Source: Algibacter luteus
GTDB lineage: Bacteria; Bacteroidota; Bacteroidia; Flavobacteriales; Flavobacteriaceae
Length of the DNA: 64,000 bases
Direction: 5' to 3'
Assembly: GCF_900141715.1 (NCBI RefSeq)
Contig: NZ_FQYK01000005.1
Location: 186,001-250,000 of the forward strand
Made by a program: the position numbers and the translations under genes. This document shows positions 77 through 37,240 of this stretch, in pieces (position 1 is the stretch's first letter; every line of letters starts with the position of its first letter). Under the pieces are notes generated by a model, which saw only the letters and a list, made by a program, of their open reading frames with translations, made no database searches and was not told the origin of the DNA.

Positions 77-202
77 GCCTATGTGTTCGTGTGTGATTTC
101 GGAGTAATAGAACTAAGATAGTAAATTAACAGAAACCTATAATTCAAAGCATCTAGTTTTCCGAATGAAATCAAGCGCAATAAACTATACGCGTTGTTGG
201 CG
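77..202. repeat. attC-like site S1 (decayed left core)
   Basis: The right end is intact (ATACGCGTTGTTGGCG, core GTTGGCG at 196-202). The left core reads CCTATG where AAC is expected, followed by a recognisable GTGTTCGTGTGTG arm. The central CC/GG hairpin is missing. The outer bases GTTGGCG pair with CGCCAAC at the left end of S2, which defines the cassette around 217-582. Confidence 0.65.
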
Positions 203-216
203 TGTCGTGGTTTAAT

Positions 217-582
217 TTAATTATTATAGTTTTGAATCTTTCGTTCGTCACGAATTTCACCTACATGATAATATGCTATAATTTGCTCAATGAGATTGTC
301 TTTTGCATAATACCATTCACTTACATCCAAACTAAATTCTTGACCTTGTTTCGCTGTATATCTTACACATGCTTTATTTGATTCATAAATTACATCGTGA
401 ATCTCAAATTCATATCCCAGAAATTTATCCTTATTTTCTTCAATTAAGTTTGTATACGCTTTTTTTCCTTCTATGATCCCGAAAGGGCTTGTGTGTTTGA
501 AATTTTCAGAGATTGGCAAATTAAGAAAATCACCTTTTTCCCATTTGTCAAACCATTGTTTCACTAAATCTTTTAAGTCCAT
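217..582 (-). CDS. SnoaL-like / NTF2-fold small protein
   Basis: This 121-residue protein has the length and pattern of the SnoaL-like NTF2 fold: an N-terminal helix (LVKQWFDKWEKGDF), a central FGIIEGKKAY turn, then beta strands with a conserved WYYAKDNLI segment near residue 90. NTF2-fold proteins of this size are usually cytoplasmic and act as small-molecule isomerases, hydrolases or ligand binders, so the substrate cannot be told. It is the only gene in its cassette, bounded by complementary GTTGGCG/CGCCAAC flanks. No signal peptide is visible. The start at 582 is the only Met that covers the whole fold. Confidence 0.6.
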   Translation of the reverse strand: MDLKDLVKQWFDKWEKGDFLNLPISENFKHTSPFGIIEGKKAYTNLIEENKDKFLGYEFEIHDVIYESNKACVRYTAKQGQEFSLDVSEWYYAKDNLIEQIIAYYHVGEIRDERKIQNYNN

Positions 583-613
583 TTTATAAATTAGTATCGC
601 AATTTAGTATGTG

Positions 614-748
614 CGCCAACGTGTTTGTAACAAATTAGTTGCGTGGTTTAGCCTCTAATTTAATAAACAATAACGAGCTCGAGAAAATTTAGAAGAAATA
701 ATCCAAACAAGAAACGGCCAAAGCAATGAATTATAAACGTTGTAGACA
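614..748. repeat. attC-like site S2 (degenerate)
   Basis: The left core CGCCAAC and following GTGTTTGTAA arm are clear, as is the right ATTATAAACGTTGTAGAC end. Arm pairing is imperfect because of a small insertion on the left. The right core appears to have lost one base (GTAGACA where GTTNNNN is expected). The central GNA hairpin is not present. Confidence 0.65.
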
Positions 749-756
749 ACTGGTTT

Positions 757-1269
757 TTATTTTGAATAAGCACCTGAAGAATATGTCAATTCATAACTAT
801 GCGTGTAGATTTCAAATACAATTCCAAACGGGTCTTCAACATAACACATTTTGAAAGGCTTGTCATTCGGATAGTATGCTCTTATTGGCATTCTTTGTTT
901 TCCTCCATAAGACAAAATTTTATCAATGAGTTCTTCAATATTTGGGTCTTGTATACAAAAATGAAATAGACCGGTATTGAAAGGATTAAATTCAGGTGCT
1001 TCTTTAATTCCATTCGGAAAAGAAAATAATTCTATTCCAATACCGTCAGAAGTTGCTAAATGAGCGATTTCAAACGACGTCCAATCGTTTCCGAAAACGT
1101 CAATGCACATTTGACCAATAGCAGTTTCCTTTTCTTTTTTGACTTCTGAAGGCTCCATAATTATGTACCAGCCCATTACTTCTGAATAGAATTTAACGGC
1201 CTCTTTTATATTTGGAACTGTTAATCCGATATGCGAAAATGATTTTGGATAATTTTTATTCGTTGTCAT
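757..1269 (-). CDS. VOC-family (glyoxalase/dioxygenase-like) protein
   Basis: This 170-residue protein begins with the vicinal-oxygen-chelate opening FSHIGLTVPNIKEAVKFYSEVMGW (residues 10-34) and has a second betaalphabetabetabeta half with LFHFCIQDPNIEELIDKI and an ending FKMCYVEDPFGIVFEIYT. Candidate metal ligands are H13, H103 and E153. Members include glyoxalases, ring-cleaving dioxygenases and resistance proteins; the substrate here is unknown. The gene is divergent from an HxlR-type regulator within the same cassette. That arrangement usually means the regulator controls the enzyme in response to a reactive electrophile or related signal. Confidence 0.75.
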   Translation of the reverse strand: MTTNKNYPKSFSHIGLTVPNIKEAVKFYSEVMGWYIIMEPSEVKKEKETAIGQMCIDVFGNDWTSFEIAHLATSDGIGIELFSFPNGIKEAPEFNPFNTGLFHFCIQDPNIEELIDKILSYGGKQRMPIRAYYPNDKPFKMCYVEDPFGIVFEIYTHSYELTYSSGAYSK

Positions 1270-1298
1270 AAGTTAAATTTTAGATTGCAAAAATAATC

Positions 1299-1306
1299 TA
1301 TATTTG
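1299..1306 (+). promoter_or_regulatory. Candidate -7 box TATATTTG for the HxlR gene
   Basis: It matches the Bacteroidota -7 consensus TAnnTTTG in the divergent intergenic region. A TTG lies upstream, but closer than the usual spacing. A second match, TAATTTTG (1386-1393), abuts the ATG and could give a leaderless transcript. Neither is proven. Confidence 0.3.
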
Positions 1307-1393
1307 CCTAATCGGCAATAACTTACTAAAAAGGAGTATAGTTACTAAAATGAGTAAAATAATGATAATCAATAATTTAAAGTTGTAATTTTG

Positions 1394-1886: not shown

Positions 1887-2900
1887 TTATTCTTTAATTA
1901 GTATTTGAGTTATTATGCCATTACTTCTTTTCAGGAAGTGCTGCCCCTTTTCATTTTTGTATAACCTTATAATCGCAGCCCTACCGGCAAAATAAAAATT
2001 GTCTTGATGCCAATATAATTGCGTTTGGTTGTCTTCCGTTTTAATGAATAGTTCGTTGTTTTCAAAGATTAAGGAAAGCCTTTGGCGAATCTCAAGTCCT
2101 TCTGAATGGATGTAATCCCCTAAAAAGGATTCAACGTCATCTTTATTGGCTGAAAGTCTTAAAACTTCTGGAGTCTTGGAGCCATGATTCCCTAGTAACG
2201 AATCAATTTGATGGTACAGCTCTGTAGCCTCAAACCTGAATACAGATGATATAAAGGCCACACTTCGAAAGGCTTTCATGTACTCTGCCGTCCTGTTTTT
2301 CAAAAAAGGATCATCCAATAGATATTGTCTGGCTTCTTTTGTAGTAAAGTTGTTGAATTGATGTTCTGCATGATTTGGATCTATGTATGCCCGGTTATAT
2401 CTGCTGTCATCAGCTTTTGCAATTAAGGTGGCATTACTGTCGGTAATATCTTCTTGTGTTACCGTATATAAACCATTTAATCTAGGCATGAGCACAGAGT
2501 ATTTATCCGGCAAGTTTTCCAGATTGTCCATCAAGCGTTCATAACCTCCTCTATTAACACTAAAATTTACAAAACCATCATATGGACGTAACTCATAGGG
2601 TGTAGATTCCACCGTTAATAAGTCCTTATAAACCTTATAAGCCATTGAGTCTTTTCGAATAAAATGTTTGAATATTCGCTTGGAGTCTTTTATATCAATA
2701 AGAATATCTTCTTGTATCTGGGTAAGGATAGTTTTAATTTTTTGCTCGTTTTTAGACGCATTATAGGCATCATTTATGGCGACAGCAATCAAGATTCCTA
2801 TCACCACTAGAAAGATCTCACCAATGGCGTATTTAAAATACTTTCCAGCTTTATTTTTTCCCATAAGGTCGTATCTAATCTTTCTAAAAAACTTAATCAT
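1887..2900 (-). CDS. DUF6090-family membrane-anchored protein (paralogue 1)
   Basis: The protein has 337 residues. Residues 1-45 are the family hallmark: a basic N-terminus MIKFFRKIRYDL, then a single transmembrane helix around GEIFLVVIGILIAVAIN (28-44). Basic residues before the helix predict a cytoplasmic N-terminus and an exported C-terminal domain. The remaining 290 residues are mostly helical and end in a beta-rich part (LFIKTEDNQTQLYWHQDNFYF). No function is established for the family. With paralogue 4 it forms a longer subclass (about 340-350 aa); the other copies are about 240-260 aa. It lacks the usual INNWNE tail after the helix. Confidence 0.8.
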   Translation of the reverse strand: MIKFFRKIRYDLMGKNKAGKYFKYAIGEIFLVVIGILIAVAINDAYNASKNEQKIKTILTQIQEDILIDIKDSKRIFKHFIRKDSMAYKVYKDLLTVESTPYELRPYDGFVNFSVNRGGYERLMDNLENLPDKYSVLMPRLNGLYTVTQEDITDSNATLIAKADDSRYNRAYIDPNHAEHQFNNFTTKEARQYLLDDPFLKNRTAEYMKAFRSVAFISSVFRFEATELYHQIDSLLGNHGSKTPEVLRLSANKDDVESFLGDYIHSEGLEIRQRLSLIFENNELFIKTEDNQTQLYWHQDNFYFAGRAAIIRLYKNEKGQHFLKRSNGIITQILIKE

Positions 2901-2904
2901 ATAT

Positions 2905-3015
2905 CTAATTTAAGCATTTAGTTTGTCCGCAAGCCGCTTTCTCAACCAAATGTCCACTGGACATTCGATTTTGTTGCACAAAATTATGTTTCGATAATCT
3001 AAAGAATTTTATCAT
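2905..3015 (-). CDS. Small ORF of 36 codons preceding paralogue 1 (duplicated at 3823-3933)
   Basis: The ORF starts MIKFFRLSKHNFVQQN and ends ACGQTKCLN, four bases before the DUF6090 start. Upstream of its ATG is the leader normally found in front of DUF6090 genes. A second copy with a few substitutions and no frameshift precedes paralogue 2. It may be a real leader peptide or a DUF6090 5' end split by an insertion. The inner AATGTCC/GGACATT inverted repeat could form a hairpin. Confidence 0.35.
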   Translation of the reverse strand: MIKFFRLSKHNFVQQNRMSSGHLVEKAACGQTKCLN

Positions 3016-3039
3016 TGGTTAGCGGTTTCTGTTAATGAG

Positions 3040-3057
3040 CTATACACGGTGTTGTAC
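3040..3057. repeat. Truncated attC-like site (right arm only)
   Basis: The sequence CTATACACGGTGTTGTAC is the right arm plus core GTTGTAC of a site. It is joined directly to a DUF6090 leader (GGTTAGCGGTTTCTGTTAATGAG). The left core, left arm and central hairpin are missing, so a deletion removed most of the site. Confidence 0.65.
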
Positions 3058-3062
3058 TTTCG

Positions 3063-3818
3063 TTATTTCTCAATATCTTCTTCAATTAATACTATAGTTT
3101 TTTCTACTATGTCTAGAATATTTTTACAAATTGATGCTATATAGGAATTATTTGATGAAGCTAAAACATATGTATTTTTTAAACTTTTATCACCTTTAAT
3201 CATTTCAATATTCTGTTTTAATAAAATGGAATCATTTTTATCAAAATCCACTTTTTTTGCATTAAACATTAGCTCATAATCGATAGAATTAATATTTTTT
3301 TTATAAAGGAATTCGTGATACTCATATTTTAAATGTTCTTCCATCATTGCAAGTTGCACATATTTCGAATTTAAATTTAAAAGATGTTGTCGTATTTCAT
3401 TACTATTAATTAATGACAATTGACCGGAACTTTTAAGTTCACTAAATGAGTTGTTGTTCGGGTGATGAACTCTCCAAATAAATGCTCTGAACTGATTTTT
3501 ATTGAAAGAGACTAAATCTTGTTGTCTTTTTCCATCAATGTAATCCCTTATAGTATCAGAAGCTTTAGATTGTGATTCTTTAAATTTTATCATTTTTTCT
3601 AAAGCAATTATTTCCTGATTTAAATCTTGAAGAATATTATTTAGATGTACAATTTCATTTTTTCTCAAATCACTATTCTCTCGACTAATATTTAATTGCA
3701 AAGCAATCAAAATACCAATAACAACAAGTATAATTTCTCCAATGGCGTATTTGAAATACTTTCCAGTTTTATTTTTTTCCATAAGGTCGTATCTAATCTT
3801 TCTAAAAAACTTAATCAT
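3063..3818 (-). CDS. DUF6090-family membrane-anchored protein (paralogue 2)
   Basis: The 251-residue protein has an N-terminus nearly identical to paralogue 1 (MIKFFRKIRYDLMEKNKTGKY) and a TM helix at about residues 28-42 (GEIILVVIGILIALQLN). The C-terminal domain differs strongly from paralogue 1 and is helical and charged, with a central FIWRVHHPNNNSFSELKSSGQLSLI segment. The motif (N)xxF.EL..SG.L.LI recurs in paralogues 2, 3, 5 and others. The gene shares its upstream 120 bp with paralogue 1, which indicates a local duplication. Its flanking cores (GTTGTAC, GCATAAC) match only partly. Confidence 0.8.
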   Translation of the reverse strand: MIKFFRKIRYDLMEKNKTGKYFKYAIGEIILVVIGILIALQLNISRENSDLRKNEIVHLNNILQDLNQEIIALEKMIKFKESQSKASDTIRDYIDGKRQQDLVSFNKNQFRAFIWRVHHPNNNSFSELKSSGQLSLINSNEIRQHLLNLNSKYVQLAMMEEHLKYEYHEFLYKKNINSIDYELMFNAKKVDFDKNDSILLKQNIEMIKGDKSLKNTYVLASSNNSYIASICKNILDIVEKTIVLIEEDIEK

Positions 3819-3822
3819 ATAT

Positions 3823-3933
3823 CTAATTTAAGCATTTAGTCTGTCCGCAAGCGGCTATCTCAACCAAATGTCCACTGGACATTTGATTTTGTTGCACAAA
3901 ATTATGTTTCGATAATTTAAGGAATTTAATCAT
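3823..3933 (-). CDS. Second copy of the 36-codon small ORF
   Basis: It starts MIKFLKLSKHNFVQQN and ends TKCLN, the same length as the copy at 2905-3015, and again stops four bases before a DUF6090 start. Only a handful of substitutions separate the copies and the frame is kept. That is compatible with weak coding constraint or simply a recent duplication. Confidence 0.35.
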   Translation of the reverse strand: MIKFLKLSKHNFVQQNQMSSGHLVEIAACGQTKCLN

Positions 3934-3995
3934 TGGTTAGTTCTTTCACTAAAGTTAGGATAATTATTTTAATCCGTTCGAGTGAGAATAATGAA

Positions 3996-4128
3996 GCATA
4001 ACGTGTTTGTATAATCGTCAGTTGCGGGTTAATATGCGTTAATATTCGGTTAAGGACTGACGTTAGCAATTCCGAGTGGATTCGGACGTAGTCGAATCCG
4101 CCGTAATTGCGGTTATACATTGTTAGCC
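3996..4128. repeat. attC-like site S4
   Basis: The cores are GCATAAC (3996-4002) and GTTAGCC (4122-4128). The arms GTATAATCGTCAGTTGCGG and CCGTAATTGCGGTTATAC pair. The centre is a different hairpin, GGATTCG/CGAATCC with loop GACGTAGT, shared only with S17. The preceding bases 3940-3995 hold a longer DUF6090 leader with a TAACTTTA element on the minus strand, a weak -7 match. Confidence 0.8.
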
Positions 4129-4893
4129 TTTCGTTATTTCTTTATTAATTAAGTCAATAACTTTTTTGTTCAATTCTTTCATTCTTTTGTAATCATCGAT
4201 AATCAATGAATTCGTAAATACTGAAACGACAAATCCATTCTTAAAGACTTTATTATTAATCAGTCTATCTATTTCTTCCCTTGAAAGCTCTATCTTATTA
4301 TCAAATTCTCCATTGTTAGCATAGAAAACAAAGCTTTGGGCAAAAGGTTCTAAATCAACAGTTCTAAACCAAGGGTCATAAAAATAGTGCTCCATATCAT
4401 TTCTCAAATGCTCTCGATATGATATAATTTGTTTGTGGATTAAGTCTAAATTTAAAAGTTCATTTTTTATTGATGCGTTTGAGATTATTGTAAAATTTCC
4501 AGAATTCAATAATTCTACGAAAGTGTTGTTATTCCGCTGAAATTCTTGCCAGATGCCCACATTAAAGGTATGGAAGTTAAACATTTGAATATTCTCTACA
4601 GGCTTTCCATTAAAATGTTCAAGAGCAATTTGGGCAGAGTTCACTATACTTTCTCTAATACCAATGTAGCGTTCAAGTTCACTTTCTTCAAAAACTAAAT
4701 CACTCTTTAAATTTTTCAAGAATTGTACTTCTTTGGCTCTTTGTTTATTTAATTCGTTATTGTTGTTGATTTGTAATGCTATTAAGATTCCAATTACTAC
4801 AAGAACTATCTCTCCAATTGCATAAATTAAATACTTACTGAATTTATTTTCAGAAAGTAAATTTTGACGAATTTTTCTAAAGAATTTTATCAT
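4123..4893 (-). CDS. DUF6090-family membrane-anchored protein (paralogue 3)
   Basis: The protein has 256 residues. Its N-terminus (MIKFFRKIRQNLLSENKFSKYL) precedes a TM helix at 28-42 ending LQINNNN. The exported part contains NNTFVELLNSGNFTIISNASIKNELLNLD, the family's recurrent central motif. The last codons (ITKG, stop) lie in S4: the TAA stop is formed by the core GTTA itself. The flanks (GTTAGCC left, TCACAAC right) do not match, so this cassette was probably rearranged after capture. Function is unknown. Confidence 0.8.
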   Translation of the reverse strand: MIKFFRKIRQNLLSENKFSKYLIYAIGEIVLVVIGILIALQINNNNELNKQRAKEVQFLKNLKSDLVFEESELERYIGIRESIVNSAQIALEHFNGKPVENIQMFNFHTFNVGIWQEFQRNNNTFVELLNSGNFTIISNASIKNELLNLDLIHKQIISYREHLRNDMEHYFYDPWFRTVDLEPFAQSFVFYANNGEFDNKIELSREEIDRLINNKVFKNGFVVSVFTNSLIIDDYKRMKELNKKVIDLINKEITKG

Positions 4894-4917
4894 TGGTTAG
4901 CGGTTTCTGATAATGAA

Positions 4918-5049
4918 TCACAACGTAGTTGTATATGGATTGTTGCGTGGTTTAAGCACATAAATTAGCAAATAAAAACCGAATAGAAAATCCGCGAGGA
5001 TTTTCGTAAGTAGGCTAGAACCAGCAATAAATTATATACGGTGTTAGCC
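4918..5049. repeat. attC-like site S5
   Basis: The cores are TCACAAC (4918-4924) and GTTAGCC (5043-5049). The arms are GTATATGGATTGTTGCG and AGCAATAAATTATATAC. The central hairpin AAAATCC-GCGA-GGATTTT has a GNRA-type tetraloop. It belongs to the subfamily with S15, S16, S28, S29 and S33. Confidence 0.85.
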
Positions 5050-5112
5050 TTTCGTTATTTCTTGTTCAGTTTTGTTCTAGTAAGTTATGCTTTCTTAAAG
5101 AATTTAATCACA
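5050..5112 (-). pseudogene. Fossil 5' end of a DUF6090 gene fused to a cassette 3' boundary
   Basis: On the minus strand the bases read GTG-ATT-AAA-TTC-TTT-AAG-AAA (VIKFFKK), then a stop, then residues resembling the N-terminal L...NK region, and then the AAATAACGAAAGGC boundary seen 3' of other DUF6090 genes. This looks like an internally deleted paralogue left between S5 and paralogue 4. Confidence 0.4.
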
Positions 5113-6156
5113 GTTTTTCAATTTTATAAATTCACTAGTTATTTGTCCATTAACAATTGTTTTTACACTATAGACATTACCAGCATCATCTTTGGAAAAA
5201 TTAAAATTTATGATACTGGTTTTGTTAATTTTAGCAATAAAATCACCATTTTCATTTATAGACAAAAGTAAATGGGCAGTGCCAGAGTCTCCAAATGCTA
5301 AGAAGTTACCTTTTCTTTCAATAGTTATATCCAAGTCTATTCTTCCAGTTTTATAACAGCCGGAATAGGTCTCTAATTTGTCATTACTTATTTTTATAGC
5401 ATGTCTAGGCATAAATTTCGGTAAGGGTTTTTCTGAAAATATGGCGTCATGTAGTTCAGCGTAACTTATTATTGAAACAGATTTTAAAAAAATCAATGAT
5501 TCAATATATTTGATATTTCTTTCTTTATATGAGGCCACCATATTTTTAAATAATGCTTGTTCAACAAAAGCAAAGGCCTCCTTATTTGGCTTTTTGCTCA
5601 ATACATCATAATACCAAGGCTGGTTGAACATAAAGTTTTTTTTAATATCATCATTTAAATTTGTTAAAGACTCCATGGGTTCGTATACCTTTTCTGCATT
5701 ATAGGTGTATAAAGGGGTAAGGTTTTTAAGGATACTATTATATTTTTTCGGTATAATATTTATAGCATTCATTAAACTATTGTAATCATTAGTGGACTGA
5801 CTAAAATTATGACTCATTTTAAAAAAATCAGTTAACTCTCCATACTGAAAACCTGTTACTTCATTAATTTTATAATTGCTTTCTAATATTAGTTTTGCTA
5901 TTGAATCTTTTTTATTTAGATAGAAAATAGTACCGTCAATTGCTTTTATATCCTGCTCGAGTTCTTGCAAAACTTGTTCAAACAATGTTTCAATTTTGGC
6001 ATTGTTATTTTTATTCTCGTTCCAATTATTAATTTGAAGTGCAATGAGAATACCAATAACCACAAGAACAATTTCACCAATTGCGTATTTCAGATATTTT
6101 CCTGTTTTACCTTCTGAAAGTAAATTTTGTCTAATTTTTCTAAAGAATTTAATCAT
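5104..6156 (-). CDS. DUF6090-family membrane-anchored protein (paralogue 4, long form)
   Basis: The 350-residue protein has the canonical N-terminus MIKFFRKIRQNLLSEGKTGKY, a TM helix (28-43) and INNWNENK. The last 90 residues (LETYSGCYKTGRIDLDITIERKGNFLAFGDSG) form a beta-rich repeat-like domain also present in weaker form in paralogue 1, resembling domains that follow beta-lactamase-like folds in other Bacteroidota proteins. The middle is helical. A TACCTTTA element (6173-6180, minus strand) in the leader is a near match to a -7 box. It is probably a bitopic inner-membrane protein with an exported domain. Confidence 0.8.
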   Translation of the reverse strand: MIKFFRKIRQNLLSEGKTGKYLKYAIGEIVLVVIGILIALQINNWNENKNNNAKIETLFEQVLQELEQDIKAIDGTIFYLNKKDSIAKLILESNYKINEVTGFQYGELTDFFKMSHNFSQSTNDYNSLMNAINIIPKKYNSILKNLTPLYTYNAEKVYEPMESLTNLNDDIKKNFMFNQPWYYDVLSKKPNKEAFAFVEQALFKNMVASYKERNIKYIESLIFLKSVSIISYAELHDAIFSEKPLPKFMPRHAIKISNDKLETYSGCYKTGRIDLDITIERKGNFLAFGDSGTAHLLLSINENGDFIAKINKTSIINFNFSKDDAGNVYSVKTIVNGQITSEFIKLKNCD

Positions 6157-6172
6157 TAGTGGTTAGTTTCTT

Positions 6173-6180
6173 TAAAGGTA
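6173..6180 (-). promoter_or_regulatory. Candidate -7 element TACCTTTA upstream of paralogue 4
   Basis: It matches TAnnTTTG at seven of eight positions. Similar elements lie in the longer leaders of paralogue 6 (TACCTTTC, 10,593-10,600) and near 3950 (TAACTTTA). The short leaders of the other DUF6090 genes have none. No convincing -33 TTG was found at the usual distance. Confidence 0.25.
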
Positions 6181-6215
6181 GGATAATAAATGAATTTGGG
6201 AATTCTGATAATGAA

Positions 6216-6232
6216 GCACAACGTTGTTGTGC
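6216..6232. repeat. Collapsed attC-like site S6 (cores only)
   Basis: GCACAAC-GTT-GTTGTGC: both cores are present and perfectly complementary, but the arms and central hairpin are gone, leaving 17 bp instead of about 132. It separates paralogues 4 and 5. It could result from slippage or deletion across the long hairpin. Confidence 0.7.
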
Positions 6233-6237
6233 TTTCG

Positions 6238-7002
6238 TTATTTACATTCTTTTTCTTTTAATAATCCTATAGGTTCTTGCATTTCCTTTTTCAAATTTGA
6301 TAAATGTTGTTTCTGTCTAATGAGCATGGCAATAAAAAAAACTAGATTATCTTGAAACTTTACGAAAATTGGGTTATTGATCTCGTTTGTCCAATCATTT
6401 TTTGGCAATACCTCTAATAGTTCTTTGTCGAGCTCCTGATTAAGGTAATCAATATCTTGAAACCCAAAATCACATATTAATTCAAAATCACTCATTCTTT
6501 TGAGAATTTCATTCCTATTCTCTTGAAGTAGATTTAGAATATTGTTCAAAAATGTACTATGCTGAATGAGTCTGTTTTTAAGTTCTAAATCCCTCAACAG
6601 TTTTAGCTGTCCTGACGATGTTATGTCTTCAAAAGCAATATTACTGGGTACAAAAACGTCTTGTCTTAAAGCAATTACGAATTTATTAAGTATTTCACCT
6701 CTGTCATTAGGTAATTTGTTTAAATCTAATATTAGCTCTTTACAAAGCTTAATTTTATCAGTTGTGAGTTTTGAAGTTTCATCAATTAATTTGTCATTTA
6801 ACTCAAAGTCGTCTAAAATTCTACAGTAATAATCTGCTTCGGCATTTTTATTCTTTCGGTTTTCATTCCAATTATTAATCTGCAAAGCAATCAAAATTCC
6901 AATTACGACCAAAACTATTTCTCCGATTGCATATTTCAAATACTTTTCAGTTTTTCCTTCTGAAAGTAAGTTTTGACGAATTTTTCTAAAAAATTTTATC
7001 AT
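6238..7002 (-). CDS. DUF6090-family membrane-anchored protein (paralogue 5)
   Basis: The 254-residue protein has the conserved N-terminus MIKFFRKIRQNLLSEGKTEKY, a TM helix and INNWNENRKN. The C-terminal domain has the family centre FEDITSSGQLKLLRDLELKNRL and is otherwise unlike its neighbours. The 3' boundary is AATAACGAAAGCACAAC, the usual one for this family. It lies directly after the collapsed site S6, so it may behave as one cassette with paralogue 4. Confidence 0.8.
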   Translation of the reverse strand: MIKFFRKIRQNLLSEGKTEKYLKYAIGEIVLVVIGILIALQINNWNENRKNKNAEADYYCRILDDFELNDKLIDETSKLTTDKIKLCKELILDLNKLPNDRGEILNKFVIALRQDVFVPSNIAFEDITSSGQLKLLRDLELKNRLIQHSTFLNNILNLLQENRNEILKRMSDFELICDFGFQDIDYLNQELDKELLEVLPKNDWTNEINNPIFVKFQDNLVFFIAMLIRQKQHLSNLKKEMQEPIGLLKEKECK

Positions 7003-7026
7003 TGGTTAGCGGTTTCTGATAATGAA

Positions 7027-7157
7027 TCACAACGGTTTTGTGTATGGTTAGTTGCGTGTTTCAGCAACTAATTTAGTAAACAAAAACCTAATATAAAATC
7101 CGCGAGGATTTTCGTAAGTAGGCTAGAACTAGCAATAAATTATATACGGTGTTGTGT
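7027..7157. repeat. attC-like site S7
   Basis: The cores are TCACAAC (7027-7033) and GTTGTGT (7151-7157). The left arm is GTGTATGGTTAGTTGC and the right AGCAATAAATTATATAC. The central hairpin has a GCGA loop, and the TTAGTTGC/GCAACTAA alternative hairpin is perfect. The outer bases GTTGTGTGCA pair over 10 bp with TGCACACAAC at S8. Confidence 0.85.
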
Positions 7158-7164
7158 GCAGTTT

Positions 7165-7464
7165 TTATTCAGATATTCTTTTCTTCAAATCCATTCTTTC
7201 GTGCAATATTCTCGTTATTTCAACATAATTTTCGTTCAAAGTTCTGTAGAATATTATATGTCGATTTGTATTCATTCCGAGAAGTTGCTTTGATATTCCA
7301 TCGTAGAATTTTCCGATGTCTGGGTTTTCTGCAATTTCTTGACAATTAGAAATCAGTTCAGCGTAATATTTGTCAGCTTGTTTTTCCGACCAAACCTCAA
7401 AGGTATAATCCCAAATCTTTGATAAATCCTCAACAGCTTTGTTGGTCAATTTATATTTAGCCAT
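7165..7464 (-). CDS. parE: ParE-type toxin (RelE/ParE superfamily)
   Basis: The 99-residue protein matches ParE toxins: AVEDLSKIWDYTFEVWSEKQADKYY (helical hairpin), IGKFYDGISKQLLGMNTNRHIIFYR, and the C-terminal strand VEITRILHERMD. ParE toxins poison DNA gyrase; RelE relatives cleave mRNA, and the (I/L)LH.RMD ending favours ParE. It overlaps the end of the antitoxin gene by 8 bp, so the pair is co-translated. Toxin-antitoxin cassettes are known to stabilise large integron arrays. Perfect 10-bp matching flanks make this an intact cassette. Confidence 0.88.
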   Translation of the reverse strand: MAKYKLTNKAVEDLSKIWDYTFEVWSEKQADKYYAELISNCQEIAENPDIGKFYDGISKQLLGMNTNRHIIFYRTLNENYVEITRILHERMDLKKRISE

Positions 7465-7708
7465 TCGAGTGCTTTTTCGCTTTTAGAGATTCAAGATGTT
7501 TTTTTGGGTCAAAGTCGTGAGCTATTCCGCTGTCAATTCCTTCTTGAATAGCTTTTTTCAATGCAGTTACTTTACTTTCTTCTTCTTCTAAAAGTCTTAA
7601 TCCTGCACGAATAACTTCGCTAACGTTCTTAAATCTTCCTTCGCTTATGCAATTTTGCACGAATCGGTCAAAATAATTTCCAAGTGATATAGATGTGTTT
7701 TTGTTCAT
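7457..7708 (-). CDS. parD: ParD-type antitoxin
   Basis: The 83-residue protein has a ribbon-helix-helix N-terminus (NTSISLGNYFDRFVQNCISEGRFKNVSEVIRAGLRLLEEEE), typical of ParD/CC2985 antitoxins, and a flexible C-terminus (FDPKKHLESLKAKK) that would wrap the toxin. ParD proteins usually repress their own promoter. The upstream bases contain TTGGTATAATGACCAAATT, a partly palindromic stretch that could be the operator. Confidence 0.87.
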   Translation of the reverse strand: MNKNTSISLGNYFDRFVQNCISEGRFKNVSEVIRAGLRLLEEEESKVTALKKAIQEGIDSGIAHDFDPKKHLESLKAKKHSNG

Positions 7709-7771
7709 TTGAGTACTAATTTATCTCAAATATACCAAAAATTGGTATAATGACCAAATTCCCCAAATTGC

Positions 7772-7904
7772 ACACAACGTGTTTGTGTATGGTTAGTTGC
7801 GTGGTTCAGAAACTAATTTAACAAATAAATCACAGATAGAACATTCCGCAGGAATGTTCGTAAGTCGGCAGTGACCAAGCAATTAATTATACACGGTGTT
7901 GTGT
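7772..7904. repeat. attC-like site S8
   Basis: The cores are ACACAAC (7772-7778) and GTTGTGT (7898-7904). The arms are GTGTATGGTTAGTTGC and GCAATTAATTATACAC. The central hairpin ACATTCC-GCA-GGAATGT has stem bases different from other sites, yet still pairs. Confidence 0.87.
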
Positions 7905-7923
7905 GTGGTTTTTAAATACTTAT

Positions 7924-8499
7924 CTACTTCCTAGTCCAATTTGTGAAAATTAGTCGCAATTTTTTAACTCCAAAACTTATAAGCACTCCAAAAGCCGATG
8001 CCAAATAATTGAAACCAATATCGACAAAATCGAAAACTCGATAAGGTATAAAAAGCTGAATAAATTCGTCCAATAATCCAATAGTTCCTGCAGCCATAAT
8101 TGAGGTAAATACAGGAAATTTGACATTCACTCCATTAAGTCTCCTTTCAATTAATGCTTCATAAATTAATATTGAAAGTAATCCATATTCAAACATGTGA
8201 GAGCGCTCAGCGGTTGTGAGATCCATTCTTAACATTGCCATCCCATATACAGCTATCACTCCCGCATAAATCCAATACTCTAATCTCTTTCCTGAACTTT
8301 TCAATCCGCTGAATATGAATGCTAAAATCAAAACTAGAAATAAGTAAAAAGTGCTTTGTTCTATTATTCTACGTTCAATCATATAATCTATGAGTTGACC
8401 TCCAAAAAACAGAGTAGCATAGATTGCAATTAAAACCATTAACGCCCAAATCCATAATTTCCGTTCCCTTTCAGATGTGAAATTTTTCTTTTTTTTCAT
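7924..8499 (-). CDS. VanZ-family membrane protein
   Basis: The 191-residue protein has about five transmembrane segments. The ending GLLDEFIQLFIPYRVFDFVDIGFNYLASAFGV is the VanZ-like signature (E.(I/L)Q......R..D..D...N..G). VanZ-like proteins are integral membrane proteins of unclear biochemistry; the founding member raises teicoplanin resistance. A VanZ role in drug resistance here is not implied. It is a single-gene cassette with matching outer bases GTTGTGTGTGG and TTACACACAAC. Confidence 0.8.
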   Translation of the reverse strand: MKKKKNFTSERERKLWIWALMVLIAIYATLFFGGQLIDYMIERRIIEQSTFYLFLVLILAFIFSGLKSSGKRLEYWIYAGVIAVYGMAMLRMDLTTAERSHMFEYGLLSILIYEALIERRLNGVNVKFPVFTSIMAAGTIGLLDEFIQLFIPYRVFDFVDIGFNYLASAFGVLISFGVKKLRLIFTNWTRK

Positions 8500-8547
8500 T
8501 TATCAAACTGAGATGAAAATTAGGGTAATTGTTTTTTTTCAAATTAC

Positions 8548-8678
8548 ACACAACGGTCTTGGCTATGAGTAGTTGCGTGGGTTGGCATTTAACTTTGCAA
8601 GTATACAATTAGTTGGAAATTCCGTAGGAATTTCCAAAGTAGGCTAGAACAAGCAATTATTTATAGCCATTGTTAGCC
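8548..8678. repeat. attC-like site S9
   Basis: The cores are ACACAAC (8548-8554) and GTTAGCC (8672-8678). The arms GGCTATGAGTAGTTGC and GCAATTATTTATAGCC differ from the GTGTAT type but stay complementary. The central hairpin GAAATTCC-GTA-GGAATTTC is present. It belongs to the subfamily with S10, S11 and S21. Confidence 0.87.
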
Positions 8679-8686
8679 TTTGTTTT

Positions 8687-9625: not shown

Positions 9626-9663
9626 ATTTTCTGATTTTGATTAGTTATGTTTTTCTAAATAAA

Positions 9664-9794
9664 GGCTAACGGTTTCGGCTATGAGTAGTTGCGTGGGTTA
9701 GCACGAAACTTTGCAAGTACACACCAAGTTGGAAATTCCGCAGGAATTTCCAAAGTAGGCGAGAACAAGCAATTACTTATAGCCATTGTTATGC
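9664..9794. repeat. attC-like site S10
   Basis: The cores are GGCTAAC (9664-9670) and GTTATGC (9788-9794). The arms are GGCTATGAGTAGTTGC and GCAATTACTTATAGCC. The central hairpin GAAATTCC-GCA-GGAATTTC is perfect. Confidence 0.88.
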
Positions 9795-9799
9795 TTTCG

Positions 9800-10576: not shown

Positions 10577-10634
10577 TGATTAGTTGTTTCTTGAAAGGTA
10601 GAACAATTATTTAACTCGAGTGAGAGATAATGAA

Positions 10635-10764
10635 GCACATCGGTCTCGGCTATGAGTAGTTGCGTGGGTTAGCACTTAACTTTGTAAGTACACACCAAAA
10701 TGAAAATCCGCAGGAATTTCCAAAGTAGGCGAGAACAAGCAATTACTTATAGCCATTGTTGTGC
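10635..10764. repeat. attC-like site S11 (left core mutated)
   Basis: The left core reads GCACATC, so the invariant AAC is ATC. The right core is GTTGTGC (10,758-10,764). The arms GGCTATGAGTAGTTGC/GCAATTACTTATAGCC are intact. The central hairpin has a GCA loop with an imperfect stem. It may be crippled for recombination at the left core. Confidence 0.8.
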
Positions 10765-10773
10765 TTTCGTTAT

Positions 10774-24622: not shown

Positions 24623-24643
24623 TATTGGTTGGGTTCAAATTAC

Positions 24644-24778: not shown

Positions 24779-24793
24779 GTAGTGTTTTTTTGC

Positions 24794-25588: not shown

Positions 25589-25614
25589 TCAAATTCGTGG
25601 GTTTTCGGCATTAC

Positions 25615-28900: not shown

Positions 28901-28972
28901 AGCTTGATTGACTTTTTCGGACTCCAATCCTTTTAAATATTTGTTTAGAACAGAGTTCTGAAATAAGCTCAT
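25943..28972 (-). CDS. Type IIG restriction-modification enzyme (fused endonuclease-methyltransferase)
   Basis: The 1009-residue single-chain enzyme has an N-terminal PD-(D/E)XK nuclease with D88 and E102-x-K104 in TDGAILKG...AVIELKG. A helical connector follows with FFAEDRLLVPP. The N6-adenine methyltransferase has FYTPKYITKYIVD, motif I DPACGSGAF (about 438-446) and motif IV NPPY (about 557-560). The C-terminal target-recognition domain runs from about 700 to 1009 with IPFRQI. These Eco57I-like enzymes both methylate and cut at one asymmetric site. At 3 kb it is far longer than usual cassette cargo. Its cores GTTGTAAGTA and TACTTACAAC still match, and repeats flank it. Confidence 0.9.
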   Translation of the reverse strand: MSLFQNSVLNKYLKGLESEKVNQAYERFTSHFHNPTIQENIRNSKEEQYQGEFLIDLFVNVFGYVKNPTPSFNLTTELKNFKGSKKTDGAILKGDKALAVIELKGTNTTDLSKVETQAFGYKNNQPGCNYVITSNFEKLRFYIDNAVDFEEFNLFQLTKERFEILWLCLSSKYLLKDLAKKIKDESIKQEANITKKLYKDYSEFRNDIFDSIQKENPEYDKLTLFKKTQKLLDRFLFIFFAEDRLLVPPNSINQIIEKWKDDVDFGDHKPLYSIFKQYFNVLNVGRPARGIREAIFAYNGGLFASDEILDNININDDLLFKHTLNLSNYDFESEVSVNILGHIFEHSLTEIEEIQLELAGIPNDKGKTKRKKEGVFYTPKYITKYIVDNTVGKLCEAKKKELEINDDNYQPAKQRSRKRLDNLQSYRDWLLQLTICDPACGSGAFLNQALEFLLEEHKFIDELSAKYNKDALVLSDVENAILEKNIYGVDINEEAIEIAKLALWLHTAQKGRKLTSLSDNIKCGNSLIEDPEIAGDKAFNWEKEFPDVFSKGGFDIIIGNPPYVSNKDMHRHGMQNQINHWNDKFESAQSGNYDIFIPFIEQGMRLVKEKQYLSFIIPNKFLSAKYSKSLLDLISKNYTFEEVIDYSNINVFTDASVYPIIITISKNKQKQKNQNSVDRIIVEQGAFEEFGIHRKWDFINLKYLDSIDKESDSIISKIEKSKNTLNNDLSFEPGINGFQFTNYAQCVTDGKINDDSKRLTVTGSIDPHIFTNNITRYKKKDYIKPFITYDSEIISEGKWALFCKPKVMVAGMTKIIEASLDSKGEYAPAVSVYSICGELDKLYQVQLIINSKLINWFFRYKFSDKHMAGGYISVNNLLLQKIPFRQITDVSQTKVLVENANKYRLEVETLANNFSTLLKSKFELEKISRKLQNWYQLEFKDFLKELKRLKISIAISEEAEWLQYFNQEKDKIVELESLILRNDNEMDKIVYELYELTKEEIELVKNANA

Positions 28973-29010
28973 AAAATTTTAATCGTTTTTCTCAAAGTTA
29001 ATATCATTTC

Positions 29011-29120
29011 GAGCGTTGGCAAGAAACAGCTCTTTTATTTTTTTCAGCTTTGGCTTTTCGCGTTGGCAAAAAAAATAAATGTGCTGTTTGCGCGTTGGCT
29101 TTTTTTAGTTCAAATGTTCA
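29011..29120. repeat. Right flanking repeat of the restriction-modification gene
   Basis: The sequence contains GAGCGTTGGCAAGAAACAGC, two further CGCGTTGGC copies and TTAGTTCAAATGTTC, the same elements as on the left side. The pair resembles a direct duplication made when the gene entered an older cassette or replaced its content. Confidence 0.55.
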
Positions 29121-29143
29121 TTTTATCACGATTTCTGCATTAC

Positions 29144-29275
29144 TTACAACGTTTCTGTATAAGAATAGTGCGGTTTTGCGTGCGAGGAATTTCCGCAGGA
29201 AATTCAGAAGTAGCAAAAGTGGACTATTCGTTGATTTAGCACTAAACTAAGCATTATTTTTATACGTTGTTGCCT
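29144..29275. repeat. attC-like site S26 (AATAGTGCGG type)
   Basis: The cores are TTACAAC (29,144-29,150) and GTTGCCT (29,269-29,275). The arms are GTATAAGAATAGTGCGG and AGCATTATTTTTATAC. The central GAATTTCC-GCA-GGAAATTC hairpin is present. It belongs to the subfamily with S32 and S34. Confidence 0.85.
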
Positions 29276-29579: not shown

Positions 29580-29709
29580 AGGCAACGGTCTTGTATATGA
29601 AAAGTAGCGGATTTTAAGCACAATTTTTTCAGTTTAAACAGACCTTTTATTTATTCATTTTCTTTTGATTAATTGACTTAACCGCTATTTTTTATATACG
29701 TTGTTGGCA
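29580..29709. repeat. attC-like site S27 (AAAAGTAGCGG type)
   Basis: The cores are AGGCAAC (29,580-29,586) and GTTGGCA (29,703-29,709). The arms GTATATGAAAAGTAGCGG and CCGCTATTTTTTATATAC are as in S14. No GNA hairpin is present. Confidence 0.84.
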
Positions 29710-32033: not shown

Positions 32034-32165
32034 TGCCAACGGTTTTGTATAAGATTAGTTGCGTGGTTAAGCAACGAATTTAGCAAATACAAACCGAATA
32101 GAAAATCCGCGAGGATTTTCGTAAGTAGGCTAGAACCAAGCAATTAATTTTATACGTTGTTGGCA
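32034..32165. repeat. attC-like site S28
   Basis: The cores are TGCCAAC (32,034-32,040) and GTTGGCA (32,159-32,165), perfectly complementary to each other. The arms are GTATAAGATTAGTTGCG and GCAATTAATTTTATAC. The central GCGA hairpin is present. Confidence 0.88.
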
Positions 32166-33202: not shown

Positions 33203-33334
33203 TGCCAACGTGTTTGTGTATGATTTCGTTGCGTGTTTGAGCAACTAATTTAGCAAATACAAACCGAATAGAAAATCCGCGAGGATTTTCGTAAGTAGGC
33301 GAGTACTAGCAATGAATTATACACGTTGTTACCT
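33203..33334. repeat. attC-like site S29
   Basis: The cores are TGCCAAC (33,203-33,209) and GTTACCT (33,328-33,334). The arms GTGTATGATTTCGTTGCG and AGCAATGAATTATACAC are a variant left arm with a looser match. The central GCGA hairpin is present. Confidence 0.86.
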
Positions 33335-33914: not shown

Positions 33915-34047
33915 AGGTAACGGTCTAGTGTATGATTTCGTTGCGGAAAAATCCGCAGGATTCTTTCCGCTTGAGTAGAAAGATAACAAATGCGCGTGAA
34001 TTTTCGCTAGAAAATTCCGCAGCAATGAATTATACACAATGTTACCT
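33915..34047. repeat. attC-like site S30
   Basis: The cores are AGGTAAC (33,915-33,921) and GTTACCT (34,041-34,047), complementary to each other. The arms are GTGTATGATTTCGTTGCGG and GCAGCAATGAATTATACAC. The central hairpin GCGGAAAAATCC-GCA-GGATTCTTTCCGC is extended on the outside. Confidence 0.85.
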
Positions 34048-34354: not shown

Positions 34355-34486
34355 AGGTAACGGTTTAGTACATGAAAAGTAGCGTTTTTGAAAACGTTAT
34401 TTTCCGATGTTTAAATTTAATATTTTTTTGTTTTAGAAACATTCTATTTAACTAAATGAAGCTATTTTTTATGTACATTGTTGTGC
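34355..34486. repeat. attC-like site S31 (AAAAGTAGCG type)
   Basis: The cores are AGGTAAC (34,355-34,361) and GTTGTGC (34,480-34,486). The arms GTACATGAAAAGTAGCG and AGCTATTTTTTATGTAC pair: GTACAT replaces GTATAT of S14 and S27 on both sides, a compensatory change. No GNA hairpin is present. Confidence 0.84.
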
Positions 34487-35245: not shown

Positions 35246-35377
35246 GCACAACGTGTTTGTATAAGAATAGTTGCGGTTTTGTGTGCGAGGATTTTCCGAA
35301 GGAAAATCAGACGTAACAAAAGTGCAACTACCTTTGATTAAGCCTAAAATAGCAATTATTTTTATACGGTGTTGTGC
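35246..35377. repeat. attC-like site S32 (AATAGTTGCGG type)
   Basis: The cores are GCACAAC (35,246-35,252) and GTTGTGC (35,371-35,377), complementary to each other. The arms are GTATAAGAATAGTTGCGG and AGCAATTATTTTTATAC. The central GATTTTCC-GAA-GGAAAATC hairpin is present. The next gene ends inside its right arm. Confidence 0.87.
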
Positions 35378-35835: not shown

Positions 35836-35855
35836 TTAGGTCGTTTCGGTATTAT

Positions 35856-35988
35856 GCACAACGTGTTTGTATATGGTTTGTTGCGTGGTTTAAACAAGTA
35901 ATTTAGTAAATAATTACCGACAAAGAAAGTCCGCGAGGACTTTCGTAAGTAGACTAGAACTAGCAATAAATTATATACGGTGTTAGCT
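35856..35988. repeat. attC-like site S33
   Basis: The cores are GCACAAC (35,856-35,862) and GTTAGCT (35,982-35,988). The arms are GTATATGGTTTGTTGCG and AGCAATAAATTATATAC. The central hairpin AAAGTCC-GCGA-GGACTTT has an A-T to G-C type swap in the stem relative to S15, and pairing is kept. Confidence 0.88.
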
Positions 35989-36562
35989 ACAGTAATTTAT
36001 CTATCAATCTTACAAATTCCTCACCATTTTCATTCCGTTTCACAAACTTTCCATTTATTTTTTTGTAAGTAATTCCTCTAATATTAGTTTTTGTTATAAT
36101 TCCATTTTTGTCAAGTAAAAAGGTTTTAGGGAAACTGTAAATATTATAGTCGTTATGTATTTCTTTTGCATTTATAATATGGGTAAAATTAAATTCCCTT
36201 TTTCTTATAAACCTTCTAATTTCCTTCTTGCTATTATTAGTTATTGCTATAAAATTCACTTTATCAGAATATTTTGTTACTAATTCATTTAAAATTGGAA
36301 TTTCCTCTATACAAGATTTACAAGTAATACTCCAAGCTATTATTAATGTTGGTTTTCCTATTAATATTTCAGAATTAACTTTTTTATCTGCAAGTGTTTT
36401 TATGTCGTGAAAAATAAATTTTTCTCCAATTAATTCCTTTTTGTTCGTTTTTTTACTGTTGACAATTTCATTTGTATCAACTACTATTTTTTTTAGAGGT
36501 GTTTTTTCTACTTCTTGACAGCTTAAAAAGAAAATCAATAGTAATATTAATAAATTTCTCAT
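35987..36562 (-). CDS. TlpA-like thioredoxin-fold lipoprotein
   Basis: The 191-residue protein has a lipobox at MRNLLILLLIFFLSC (Cys 15). The thioredoxin fold shows LIGKPTLIIAWSITCKSCIEEIPILNELVTKY with a CKSC redox pair, then VNFIAITNNSKKEIRRFIRKREFNFTHII and the cis-Pro region YNIYSFPKTFLLDKNGII. It is predicted to be a periplasmic disulfide reductase tethered to a membrane, possibly for cytochrome maturation or protein repair. The stop codon TAG comes from the S33 core. Flanks TGTAGCTAAC and GTTAGCTACA match. Confidence 0.85.
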   Translation of the reverse strand: MRNLLILLLIFFLSCQEVEKTPLKKIVVDTNEIVNSKKTNKKELIGEKFIFHDIKTLADKKVNSEILIGKPTLIIAWSITCKSCIEEIPILNELVTKYSDKVNFIAITNNSKKEIRRFIRKREFNFTHIINAKEIHNDYNIYSFPKTFLLDKNGIITKTNIRGITYKKINGKFVKRNENGEEFVRLIDKLL

Positions 36563-36578
36563 AGTCGTTTTTTATTGT

Positions 36579-36711
36579 AGCTAACGGTTGGTATAAGAAT
36601 AGTGCGGTTTTGAGTCCGAGGATTTTCCGTAGGAAAATCGGAGTGACCAAATACGCACTAACCTTTAGATTTAGGATTAAACTTAAGCATTATTTTTATA
36701 CAATGTTGTAG
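36579..36711. repeat. attC-like site S34 (recombinase-proximal)
   Basis: The cores are AGCTAAC (36,579-36,585) and GTTGTAG (36,705-36,711). The arms are GTATAAGAATAGTGCGG and AGCATTATTTTTATAC. The central GATTTTCC-GTA-GGAAAATC hairpin is present. It is the last full site before the recombinase, so by integron logic it carries the most recently gained cassette on its right. Confidence 0.87.
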
Positions 36712-36726
36712 CACGTTTTTATTTAT

Positions 36727-36975
36727 TTAAGAGGTTTTTGTTCTTTCTCTAATTAGCATAAAACTCATAATTATAATAATACTTATTCCGACTACTAATA
36801 ATCCGTATTTGAATAATCCTGTTAATAAAAATGTTCCAAAACTCCCATACCTAAATTTGTTTGATTTTTCAACTAGTTCAGATATGATGTTAGAATTTTC
36901 TAAAAAAAAGAAAAAGACAATACATAATAAAGCAATAATGTAAAGTCTCACAATTTTATATTTTCTTTTATTCAT
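36727..36975 (-). CDS. Small membrane protein, 82 aa
   Basis: Two TM helices (IVRLYIIALLCIVFFFFLEN and FGTFLLTGLFKYGLLVVGISIIIIMSFMLI) are flanked by basic ends. No family is recognised. Its start overlaps the stop of the upstream gene by one base (TAATG), so translation is coupled. It belongs to the recombinase-proximal two-gene cassette. Confidence 0.68.
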   Translation of the reverse strand: MNKRKYKIVRLYIIALLCIVFFFFLENSNIISELVEKSNKFRYGSFGTFLLTGLFKYGLLVVGISIIIIMSFMLIRERTKTS

Positions 36976-37196
36976 TATAAATCATAGCTAGTCAGAACAA
37001 TAATTAGAACCACATAAAATACTGTGCCTAGACTCATCAAAATCAATTTTCGTCCCATTTTGTCGTCTTTACTTCGTTTAAGTCCTGAGTTATATGTTGG
37101 ATTATAAGTTCCACTTAATTTTACTAATATTAGATATACAGGTCCTAAAAAAAAGAGAACAATATCTGAGTCAGGGTATTTTTTTGATTCACTCAT
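36975..37196 (-). CDS. Small membrane protein, 73 aa
   Basis: One or two hydrophobic segments are visible (SDIVLFFLGPVYLILVKLSG and LILMSLGTVFYVVLIIVLTSY), with a basic middle (KRSKDDKMGRK). No family is recognised. It is the first gene of the array next to the recombinase, starting 16 bp from the outermost core GTGCTACAAC. Confidence 0.68.
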   Translation of the reverse strand: MSESKKYPDSDIVLFFLGPVYLILVKLSGTYNPTYNSGLKRSKDDKMGRKLILMSLGTVFYVVLIIVLTSYDL

Positions 37197-37208
37197 TGAT
37201 TCGCAAAT

Positions 37209-37240
37209 GTGCTACAACTTATTATATGTGGATAAATATA
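37209..37240. other. Candidate attI-like primary site at the recombinase end
   Basis: The core CTACAAC (37,212-37,218) matches GTTGTAG of S34, with outer bases GTGCTACAAC / GTTGTAGCAC identical over 10 bp, and so closes the last cassette. Beyond it is TTATTATATGTGG, which recalls a left arm (GTATATGG), but there is no second core, central hairpin or right arm before the recombinase stop at 37,253. A simple half-site like this is what an attI is expected to look like. Confidence 0.6.

Follow-up and report, generated by a model that had tools for sequence, protein, structure and literature searches.

The 64,000-nucleotide window analysed here, positions 186,001 to 250,000 of contig NZ_FQYK01000005.1 from the flavobacterium Algibacter luteus, carries what we interpret, with a probability of roughly 85%, as an integron-like array of gene cassettes on the chromosome, served by a tyrosine recombinase that lacks the IntI-specific domain (hereafter patch-less): the enzyme likely integrates cassettes at an attI-like site and likely removes them at predicted attC-like hairpins. 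The array is read from right to left, from about 37218 to about 77, and the minus strand holds all of its sites and codes nearly all of its genes.

The observation that carries this reading is that cassette ends are complementary inside one cassette and not inside one site. In integrons, the two ends of one cassette meet only in the circle, being a cassette length apart in the array; for this reason, the letters that follow its opening GTT pair with those that precede the AAC at its other end. For the 32 window cassettes with both flanking sites, the same-cassette match was 6.56 of 9 letters, compared with 3.72 for the two sides of one site and 3.23 after shuffling, and none of 20,000 shuffles reached 6.56. 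The 159 cassettes taken from other loci gave 7.23 within cassettes, 3.27 within sites and 3.21 after shuffling (maximum 3.59 in 5,000 shuffles). By position, pairing at letters 1–6 is found in 143–155 of 156 cassettes; letter 8 is conserved as a mismatch, with A at the start in 156/156 and C at the end in 124/156. A detector blind to the sites, which uses matching cassette ends only, found a longest chain of 10 in positions 1–40000 and of 1 in positions 40001–64000, with chains of at most 2 in shuffled sequence (five shuffles of each part).

Layout of the array and its sites

Counting by left cores gave 35 sites between about 37 kb and 0.1 kb, of which 32 are complete and the other three degenerate (6220–6228, about 3030–3053 and about 77–198); a first-pass annotation of this sequence had arrived at the same total but divided it into 33 full and two defective sites. 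From AAC to GTT, 31 of the complete sites span 122–127 nucleotides (nt) and the remaining one 189 nt (25619–25807), and we take the difference from the 131–135 base pairs (bp) of that annotation to be about four core letters per side. Read on the minus strand, a site runs as nnnnnnAAC, 3–4 nt, TGTAT...TTGC, a loop of about 75 nt, GCAA...ATACA, about 6 nt and GTT. The right edge proposed earlier, 37218, coincides with the first letter of the GTT with which cassette 1 begins.

An inverted-repeat search with 30-nt arms over the window gave no match, because the arms hold mismatches and enclose long loops; an energy scan of every AAC...GTT pair proved too noisy and was replaced by pattern-based core calling. 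A covariance model (R1) was built from 31 window sites and, at E ≤ 1e-3, returned 43 sites in the 3.38-Mb genome, 32 in the array and 11 outside it. These 11 sit alone or paired (contigs C5, C7, C9 and C14 of genome G000) and resemble single-cassette insertions at secondary places. The features of the array, with amino acids abbreviated to aa, are as follows.

37253–38443 (−), tyrosine recombinase, 396 aa, array head, same direction as the cassettes
37216–37252 (−), attI-like junction: 34 nt past the recombinase stop, GTT at 37218–37216 opens cassette 1
36583–36707 (−), attC-like site 1
35860–35984 (−), attC-like site 2
35250–35373 (−), attC-like site 3
34359–34482 (−), attC-like site 4
33919–34043 (−), attC-like site 5
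33207–33330 (−), attC-like site 6
32038–32161 (−), attC-like site 7
29584–29705 (−), attC-like site 8
29148–29271 (−), attC-like site 9
25619–25807 (−), attC-like site 10, long form (189 nt)
24648–24774 (−), attC-like site 11
22950–23076 (−), attC-like site 12
21880–22006 (−), attC-like site 13
21002–21124 (−), attC-like site 14
20312–20435 (−), attC-like site 15
19436–19562 (−), attC-like site 16
18921–19045 (−), attC-like site 17
18170–18294 (−), attC-like site 18
17233–17356 (−), attC-like site 19
16334–16457 (−), attC-like site 20
13424–13547 (−), attC-like site 21
12618–12744 (−), attC-like site 22
11672–11798 (−), attC-like site 23
10639–10760 (−), attC-like site 24, right core GAT not GTT
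9668–9790 (−), attC-like site 25
8552–8674 (−), attC-like site 26
7776–7900 (−), attC-like site 27
7031–7153 (−), attC-like site 28
6220–6228 (−), degenerate site, arms deleted, both cores fused
4922–5045 (−), attC-like site 29
4000–4124 (−), attC-like site 30
3030–3053 (−), degenerate site, only the left arm left
1734–1858 (−), attC-like site 31, left spacer altered
618–744 (−), attC-like site 32, left core TAC
77–198 (−), degenerate final site, left core intact, right core gone

Stem covariation and strand preference

The arms of the window sites co-vary, as the first-pass annotation had claimed: changes on both sides are seen in 11 of 19 pairs and 96.3% of cells are paired, values that none of 500 shuffles matched, and sliding the partner by one column lowers pairing to 31–33%. 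Among 150 sites of other loci (147 distinct), in an alignment that is fitted to the model and hence biased towards R1, 12 of 19 pairs vary on both sides and 98.4% of cells are paired; the count of 12 was reached by one of 500 shuffles and the other measures by none.

Recombination at attC is known to prefer the bottom strand, which here corresponds to the plus strand of the window. On that strand, stem pair 24–125 is G.T (G.U) in 145 of the 146 sites with letters there and a second stem pair is G.T in 133 of 146, and both kept pairs become A/C mismatches on the opposite strand. Computed DNA folding energies, compared for sites of up to 140 nt without N, make the bottom strand the more stable one in 30 of 31 window sites and 149 of 159 others. 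No kept bulge was seen in the 16-bp stem, the asymmetry between strands arising from the kept G.T pairs. Because a G.T pair is kept on the bottom strand only, and because the computed fold of this strand is more stable, we infer that the enzyme uses the folded bottom strand.

An alternative interpretation is that the recombinase acts on double-stranded sites, as in loxP- or dif-like systems, and that the palindrome represents two inverted binding arms. We consider this unlikely, although it retains some weight, because the 6 nt by the exchange point vary freely (the same-site match equals background), where a shared overlap would be needed if exchange took place there, and because both the conservation of a loop of about 75 nt and the keeping of G.T pairs on one strand only run counter to it.

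The cassette as the unit of movement

Near-identical duplicates occur within single arrays at four loci (L043, L045, L053 and L093), with bodies 94.8–99.8% identical. Between copies, the agreement starts at GTT, takes in the body and the 3′ stem-loop, and stops at the next GTT, with divergent sequence on both flanks; these limits therefore locate the exchange at the C/GTT edge, and they assign the stem-loop to the preceding gene, as in integrons. In the stretch 11636–13276 of L054, cassettes 1 and 2 stand in tandem, identical over 636 bp and with three consecutive sites of like scores, which is a fresh duplication. The cation-efflux cassette of the window (846 bp) recurs with different neighbours in two other genera: the L050 copy is 91.6% identical over 847 bp, and the L053 copy is 84.5% identical over an aligned 769 of about 845 bp.

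Judged from these sequence patterns, recombination in this system would involve a cassette made up of GTT, a short leader, usually one open reading frame (ORF), a 6-nt end box, AAC and the cassette's own stem-loop. The recombinase at 37253–38443 would probably put cassettes in at the attI-like site adjoining its own gene and take them out at attC-like sites that are predicted to fold. We expect that this same enzyme performs the exchange, acting on the folded bottom strand, and that the single-strand exchange would be settled by replication, as for IntI.

The recombinase and its attI-like junction

The recombinase comprises a predicted N-terminal alpha/beta extension (about residues 1–80), a SAM-like domain and a catalytic domain without the IntI-specific insertion. 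Residues R231, H320, R323, H346 and Y355, which we take to be the catalytic ones, are invariant across 50 aligned sequences. The IntI model TIGR02249 matches in two separate pieces, leaving positions 179–239 unmatched, and scores 203 bits against a cut-off of 265. The span from the KGxKDR box to the HxLRH box is 69 aa in the window enzyme and 69–70 aa in 29/29 family members, compared with 111 aa in 20/20 IntI proteins, 73–77 aa in four XerC/XerD-like proteins and 66–78 aa in the 15 measurable members of 17 further relatives. The short span and the failed model thus mean that the enzyme is not IntI by the accepted definition, in agreement with the first-pass annotation. NCBIfam model NF040815 (XerA-type) passes its cut-off by half a bit, and an AlphaFold model of moderate quality (predicted local distance difference test score 78.5, predicted template modelling score 0.50) was given little weight.

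In the window, ATATAA precedes the GTT of cassette 1. Of 21 other loci tried, 17 allowed the corresponding junction to be located; TATAA or TATAG directly precedes GTT in 14 of the 17, and the distance from the frame end is 30–48 nt in 12 and 93–372 nt in five. By sequence, the array would therefore share with IntI integrons an attI-like edge beside the recombinase gene.

We regard as extremely improbable the possibility that this is an ordinary IntI integron whose IntI is encoded elsewhere in the genome, with the adjacent recombinase being unrelated. IntI scores above the model cut-off in 85 of 296 Bacteroidota genomes, which would be in its favour, but no match exceeds the cut-off in the A. 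luteus genome, nor in its family among the matches listed, and in one genome with both (G334) IntI lies on a separate contig while the R1 sites adjoin a patch-less recombinase. No R1 site was found in 20 IntI loci of 2.6–4 kb, a weak test given the short flanks, and the R boxes deviate from the integron consensus: RYYYAAC fits 15 of 156 cassette ends and fails in 141, a departure already remarked upon in the earlier annotation, and GTTRRRY fits 14 of 156 starts.

Loci in Flavobacteriaceae and distribution across Bacteroidota

The host family, judged from named members, is Flavobacteriaceae, in which 20 loci were examined (L033, L035–L048 and L050–L054). Sites are present in 19 of these recombinase loci, in each case downstream of the gene and sharing its orientation; in the twentieth (L037) the contig ends 162 bp past the recombinase gene, and in L053 the recombinase gene lies just beyond the fetched stretch. 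No site was found 5′ of the recombinase in the 20 loci, within flanks of <1 kb to 17 kb. A random scatter of sites away from a recombinase, which the first-pass annotation had named as refuting its proposal, is thus not what these loci show.

A contig scan for relatives returned one good match (L033, Algibacter, 66%) and one weak match. In L033, L035 and L039 the recombinase adjoins dnaG, a response-regulator gene, nadE and gldB, as in the window, and it lies beside dnaG in four genomes. Among about 32 cassettes of these three loci, a set drawn mostly from L049 (the continuation of L039) with the first cassettes left out, none aligns with a window cassette across 70% of whichever is shorter. 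At this threshold, syntenic dnaG loci of other species thus share no cassette with the window, rather than the fixed gene order that the annotation had likewise considered adverse. Two congeneric pairs, with recombinase DNA identities of 72% and 70%, have no cassette body in common in the fetched stretches, their other matches being site-sized (57–196 bp); as the species are distant, this comparison is supporting and not decisive.

The family-wide and phylum-wide covariance search suggested by the annotation found sites (R1, E ≤ 1e-4) in 260 of 299 species of the family and in 66 of 296 Bacteroidota, 48 of them outside the family (the recombinase, at E ≤ 1e-70, is present in 110 of the same 299 species); many of the 48 have one or two weak matches, so that site counts outside the family rest partly on single weak matches. 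In-frame stops, one or two per gene, interrupt several family recombinases (for example, G127, G049, G219, G164 and G262), which suggests that the enzyme is lost while sites persist.

In two genomes of another Bacteroidota family (G334 and G449) R1 sites adjoin a shorter patch-less recombinase whose gene is directed away from them, as is usual in integrons. Loci L083 and L085, also from another Bacteroidota family, have a patch-less recombinase of about 280–306 aa without the N-terminal extension, pointing away from the array. Applying the end rule without R1 to 17 loci across the phylum (L103–L114 and L116–L120) gave chains of 7 in L109, 4 in L103, 3 in L107 and L110, and 2 or 1 in the others, with shuffles giving up to 2 there and 3 once elsewhere; L109 and L103 alone stood out. 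R1 matches were found in five of the 17, and the L109 and L103 arrays have site types of their own.

These distributions bear on another interpretation, that the hairpins are repeats of the repetitive extragenic palindrome or miniature inverted-repeat transposable element kind, or transcription terminators, spread by other means and accompanied by the recombinase only incidentally. The 11 sites outside the array, the many genomes with sites and no recombinase at 1e-70, and the recurrence of high-scoring sites across genera would all be expected under this interpretation. We nevertheless consider it very unlikely, because an inserted repeat gives no complementarity between the ends of the gene block that it brackets and predicts neither unit-length duplication ending at GTT nor a fixed place 3′ of a recombinase.

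Relatives on plasmids and phages

A Chryseobacterium plasmid carries a recombinase followed by four weak site matches. Plasmids L081, L123, L124 and L126 give end-rule chains of 1 at six letters; R1 matches four sites on L081 (28–44 bits) and one on L126 (39 bits), with nothing convincing on L123 and L124, and plasmid carriage of the system is weakly supported. Plasmid records with relatives are mostly from Acinetobacter (47/64), of which one was inspected, A. baylyi pJAT2044 (L123). On it, a patch-less recombinase lies between an IS91-like transposase gene and tet(X3); it is 48% identical to the Chryseobacterium plasmid enzyme and falls in the same clade, and no cassette array was found in L123. 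Given this relative beside tet(X3), the clade may bear on the flow of resistance genes. Phage relatives have at most 37% identity among the matches listed (10 of 58 records).

Observations that weigh against an integron-like system

Several results count against the integron-like interpretation. The family has far more genomes with sites (260/299) than with the recombinase (110/299), and arrays without a recombinase match may have lost the enzyme, may encode a more divergent one or may borrow one. The end rule at six letters yields no chain on the Chryseobacterium plasmid. In the window, 7 of 34 cassettes match in four or fewer of 9 end letters, all of them in the distal 13 kb, which fits decay without proving it, and the same holds for 6 of 159 cassettes elsewhere. 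One duplicate pair (L045_9/10) already differs in the spacer ahead of GTT. Finally, the window and cassette 2 of L050 share the same body (24774–25619 in the window) and have stem-loops of different subtypes, which simple unit transfer fails to explain; a site may be replaced without its gene.

Cargo of the cassettes

The longest ORF runs in cassette sense in 221 of 259 cassettes and antisense in 12, and 26 have no ORF of 60 aa. Pfam searches of 40 array ORFs, 12 of which had no match, returned the mixed content that the first-pass annotation had described as functionally unrelated; the restriction-modification protein was scanned separately. The cassettes that stand out are the following.

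25807–29148 (−), cassette with a 1009-aa MmeI/Eco57I-like restriction-modification protein
24774–25619 (−), cation-efflux cassette, recurs in two other genera
23076–24648 (−), cassette with an AbiGi-family gene and a second ORF
13547–16334 (−), cassette with an HxlR regulator along the array and flavodoxin, AhpC and LtrA genes opposite
7153–7776 (−), cassette with a ParD/ParE toxin-antitoxin pair

Other window cargo includes SnoaL, glyoxalase, VanZ-like, epimerase, hydrolase, TPR, peptidase S51, methyltransferase, DUF2071, HSDR_N_2 and thioredoxin-like proteins, together with HxlR regulators. Eight DUF6090 proteins lie on separate array stretches (1887–11647 and 21138–21851), with leaders that are partly near-identical (for example, 2784–3029 and 3702–3947, 90%), and by sequence they constitute an apparent expanding family of paralogous cassettes. 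Among type VI secretion system (T6SS) immunity domains, neither SMI1/KNR4 nor Tdi1 was matched in the 40 array ORFs (Pfam, E ≤ 0.001). Beyond the array, the sole Rfam match over its gathering score in the window is a Flavo-1 RNA (RF01705) at 50415–50497 (−).

Phylogeny of the recombinase

With XerC/XerD and two archaeal XerA sequences as outgroups, the window family and IntI form one clade, with XerA and XerCD outside (support 100/97, and 100/99 in the wider-sampled tree), and trees joining the window family with XerA, or IntI with XerA, were rejected by the approximately unbiased test (P = 0.024 and 0.027, respectively). IntI is a tight clade in three trees (100/99 or 100/100) and the window recombinase lies outside it. 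Under wider sampling, IntI falls inside the patch-less recombinases (backbone 86/79, 90/94, 89/48 and 96/88), while a tree with fewer rows places IntI as sister to the window family (81/36 for the window family); the unity of the window family is weak (24/72) in the tree that gives 100/97. Nesting of IntI within the patch-less clade is likely but unproven, because the outgroup is thin and both archaeal XerA rows are partial. Whether an older Bacteroidota gene-capture class, with patch-less recombinases and folded sites, gave rise to IntI when one lineage gained the IntI-specific domain, such that the flavobacterial arrays and the rAID and Riemerella systems discussed below are the same machinery, is a proposition for which we consider the odds about even. 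The origin of integrons becomes testable in this form: did folded-site cassette exchange precede the IntI domain?

Comparison with known systems

The recombinase-associated acquired interbacterial defence (rAID) clusters of gut Bacteroidales, an immunity-gene system, are described as having a predicted tyrosine recombinase, co-oriented short genes and conserved intergenic motifs (PMC12247911, main text). The same main text calls their biogenesis mechanism an "area of active research" and mentions neither integrons nor attC (PMC12247911). The window array likewise has a predicted tyrosine recombinase followed by co-oriented short genes with conserved intergenic motifs; it differs in that its cargo is mixed and its nearest named relatives are flavobacteria, whereas rAID clusters hold orphan T6SS immunity genes in Bacteroidales. 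A Parabacteroides distasonis plasmid (L125, 9287–14376) carries an array that we assign to rAID because of its T6SS-immunity genes and general layout; the recombinase there groups in one clade with the window family. Eight sites were read there by eye, an automatic reading (10 of 40 matches) having been rejected as misregistered and missing sites. The end rule holds in 7/7 of its cassettes (8–10 of 10 letters, three of the 10 being constant), the mean of 8.71 compares with 6.41 under permutation, and of 5,040 permutations just one, the true order, reaches it. Its hairpins differ from those of the window in their length of about 45 nt and in having ATTA instead of GTT in 7/8. In our reading of these sequences, rAID seems to belong to the same class as the window array; a 2019 Nature paper on AID systems reportedly may have compared rAID with integrons.

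A 2026 study of Riemerella anatipestifer describes homology-independent capture of a resistance gene into the chromosome together with 27 bp of upstream and 140 bp of downstream sequence, this 140-bp tail being predicted to fold like attC, at a landing locus with relE, a helix-turn-helix regulator and a cation diffusion facilitator gene; in the portion of the article drawn on here, its authors leave the mechanism open and name no recombinase (PMC13148043). For comparison, cassettes of the window carry a ParDE pair, HxlR regulators and a cation-efflux gene. If our interpretation is true, it would supply a mechanism both for the growth of rAID clusters and for this homology-free gene capture. 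A literature search covering titles and the beginnings of abstracts found no flavobacterial integron-like system among the records listed, and IntegronFinder 2.0, in the part of the article considered, added one complete integron in Bacteroidetes proper, that of Salinibacter ruber M1 (PMC9024848). Integron searches that depend on IntI would miss arrays of this class.

Archaeal XerA and bacterial XerCD have the fold and the catalytic domain in common with the window enzyme and fall outside the clade that it forms with IntI, and we know of no cassette arrays associated with Xer.

The usual IntI integron has its integrase directed away from the array, whereas in the host family the recombinase points towards it. 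The window enzyme differs further in having no IntI-specific domain (69 versus 111 aa between boxes) and about 95 extra N-terminal residues, and its end box consists of 6 free nt and fixed letters instead of RYYYAAC. Like IntI integrons and the superintegrons of the Vibrio type, it is a sedentary array with the recombinase at one end and an attI-like edge, mostly co-directional one-gene cassettes, predicted folded sites with GTT as the exchange edge, end boxes re-formed inside each cassette, a more stable bottom strand and cargo that includes toxin-antitoxin and phage-defence genes. By sequence, its sites are predicted to fold, with conserved arms and a variable loop, and its cassette ends would re-form one site if circular. 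It is not an IntI integron, because defining features for which it was tested are absent; IntegronFinder, in the passages considered, requires an integrase with the IntI-specific additional domain (PMC9668308). The sedentary integron-like system, possibly of a separate class, that was first proposed for this sequence is supported by the same-cassette ends, the unit-length duplications and the covarying sites; the class extends beyond that proposal in being family-wide, reaching other Bacteroidota, having an attI-like junction of its own and, it seems, including rAID clusters. The array thus likely functions like an integron while standing outside the IntI integrons, as a member of a separate and widespread Bacteroidota class.

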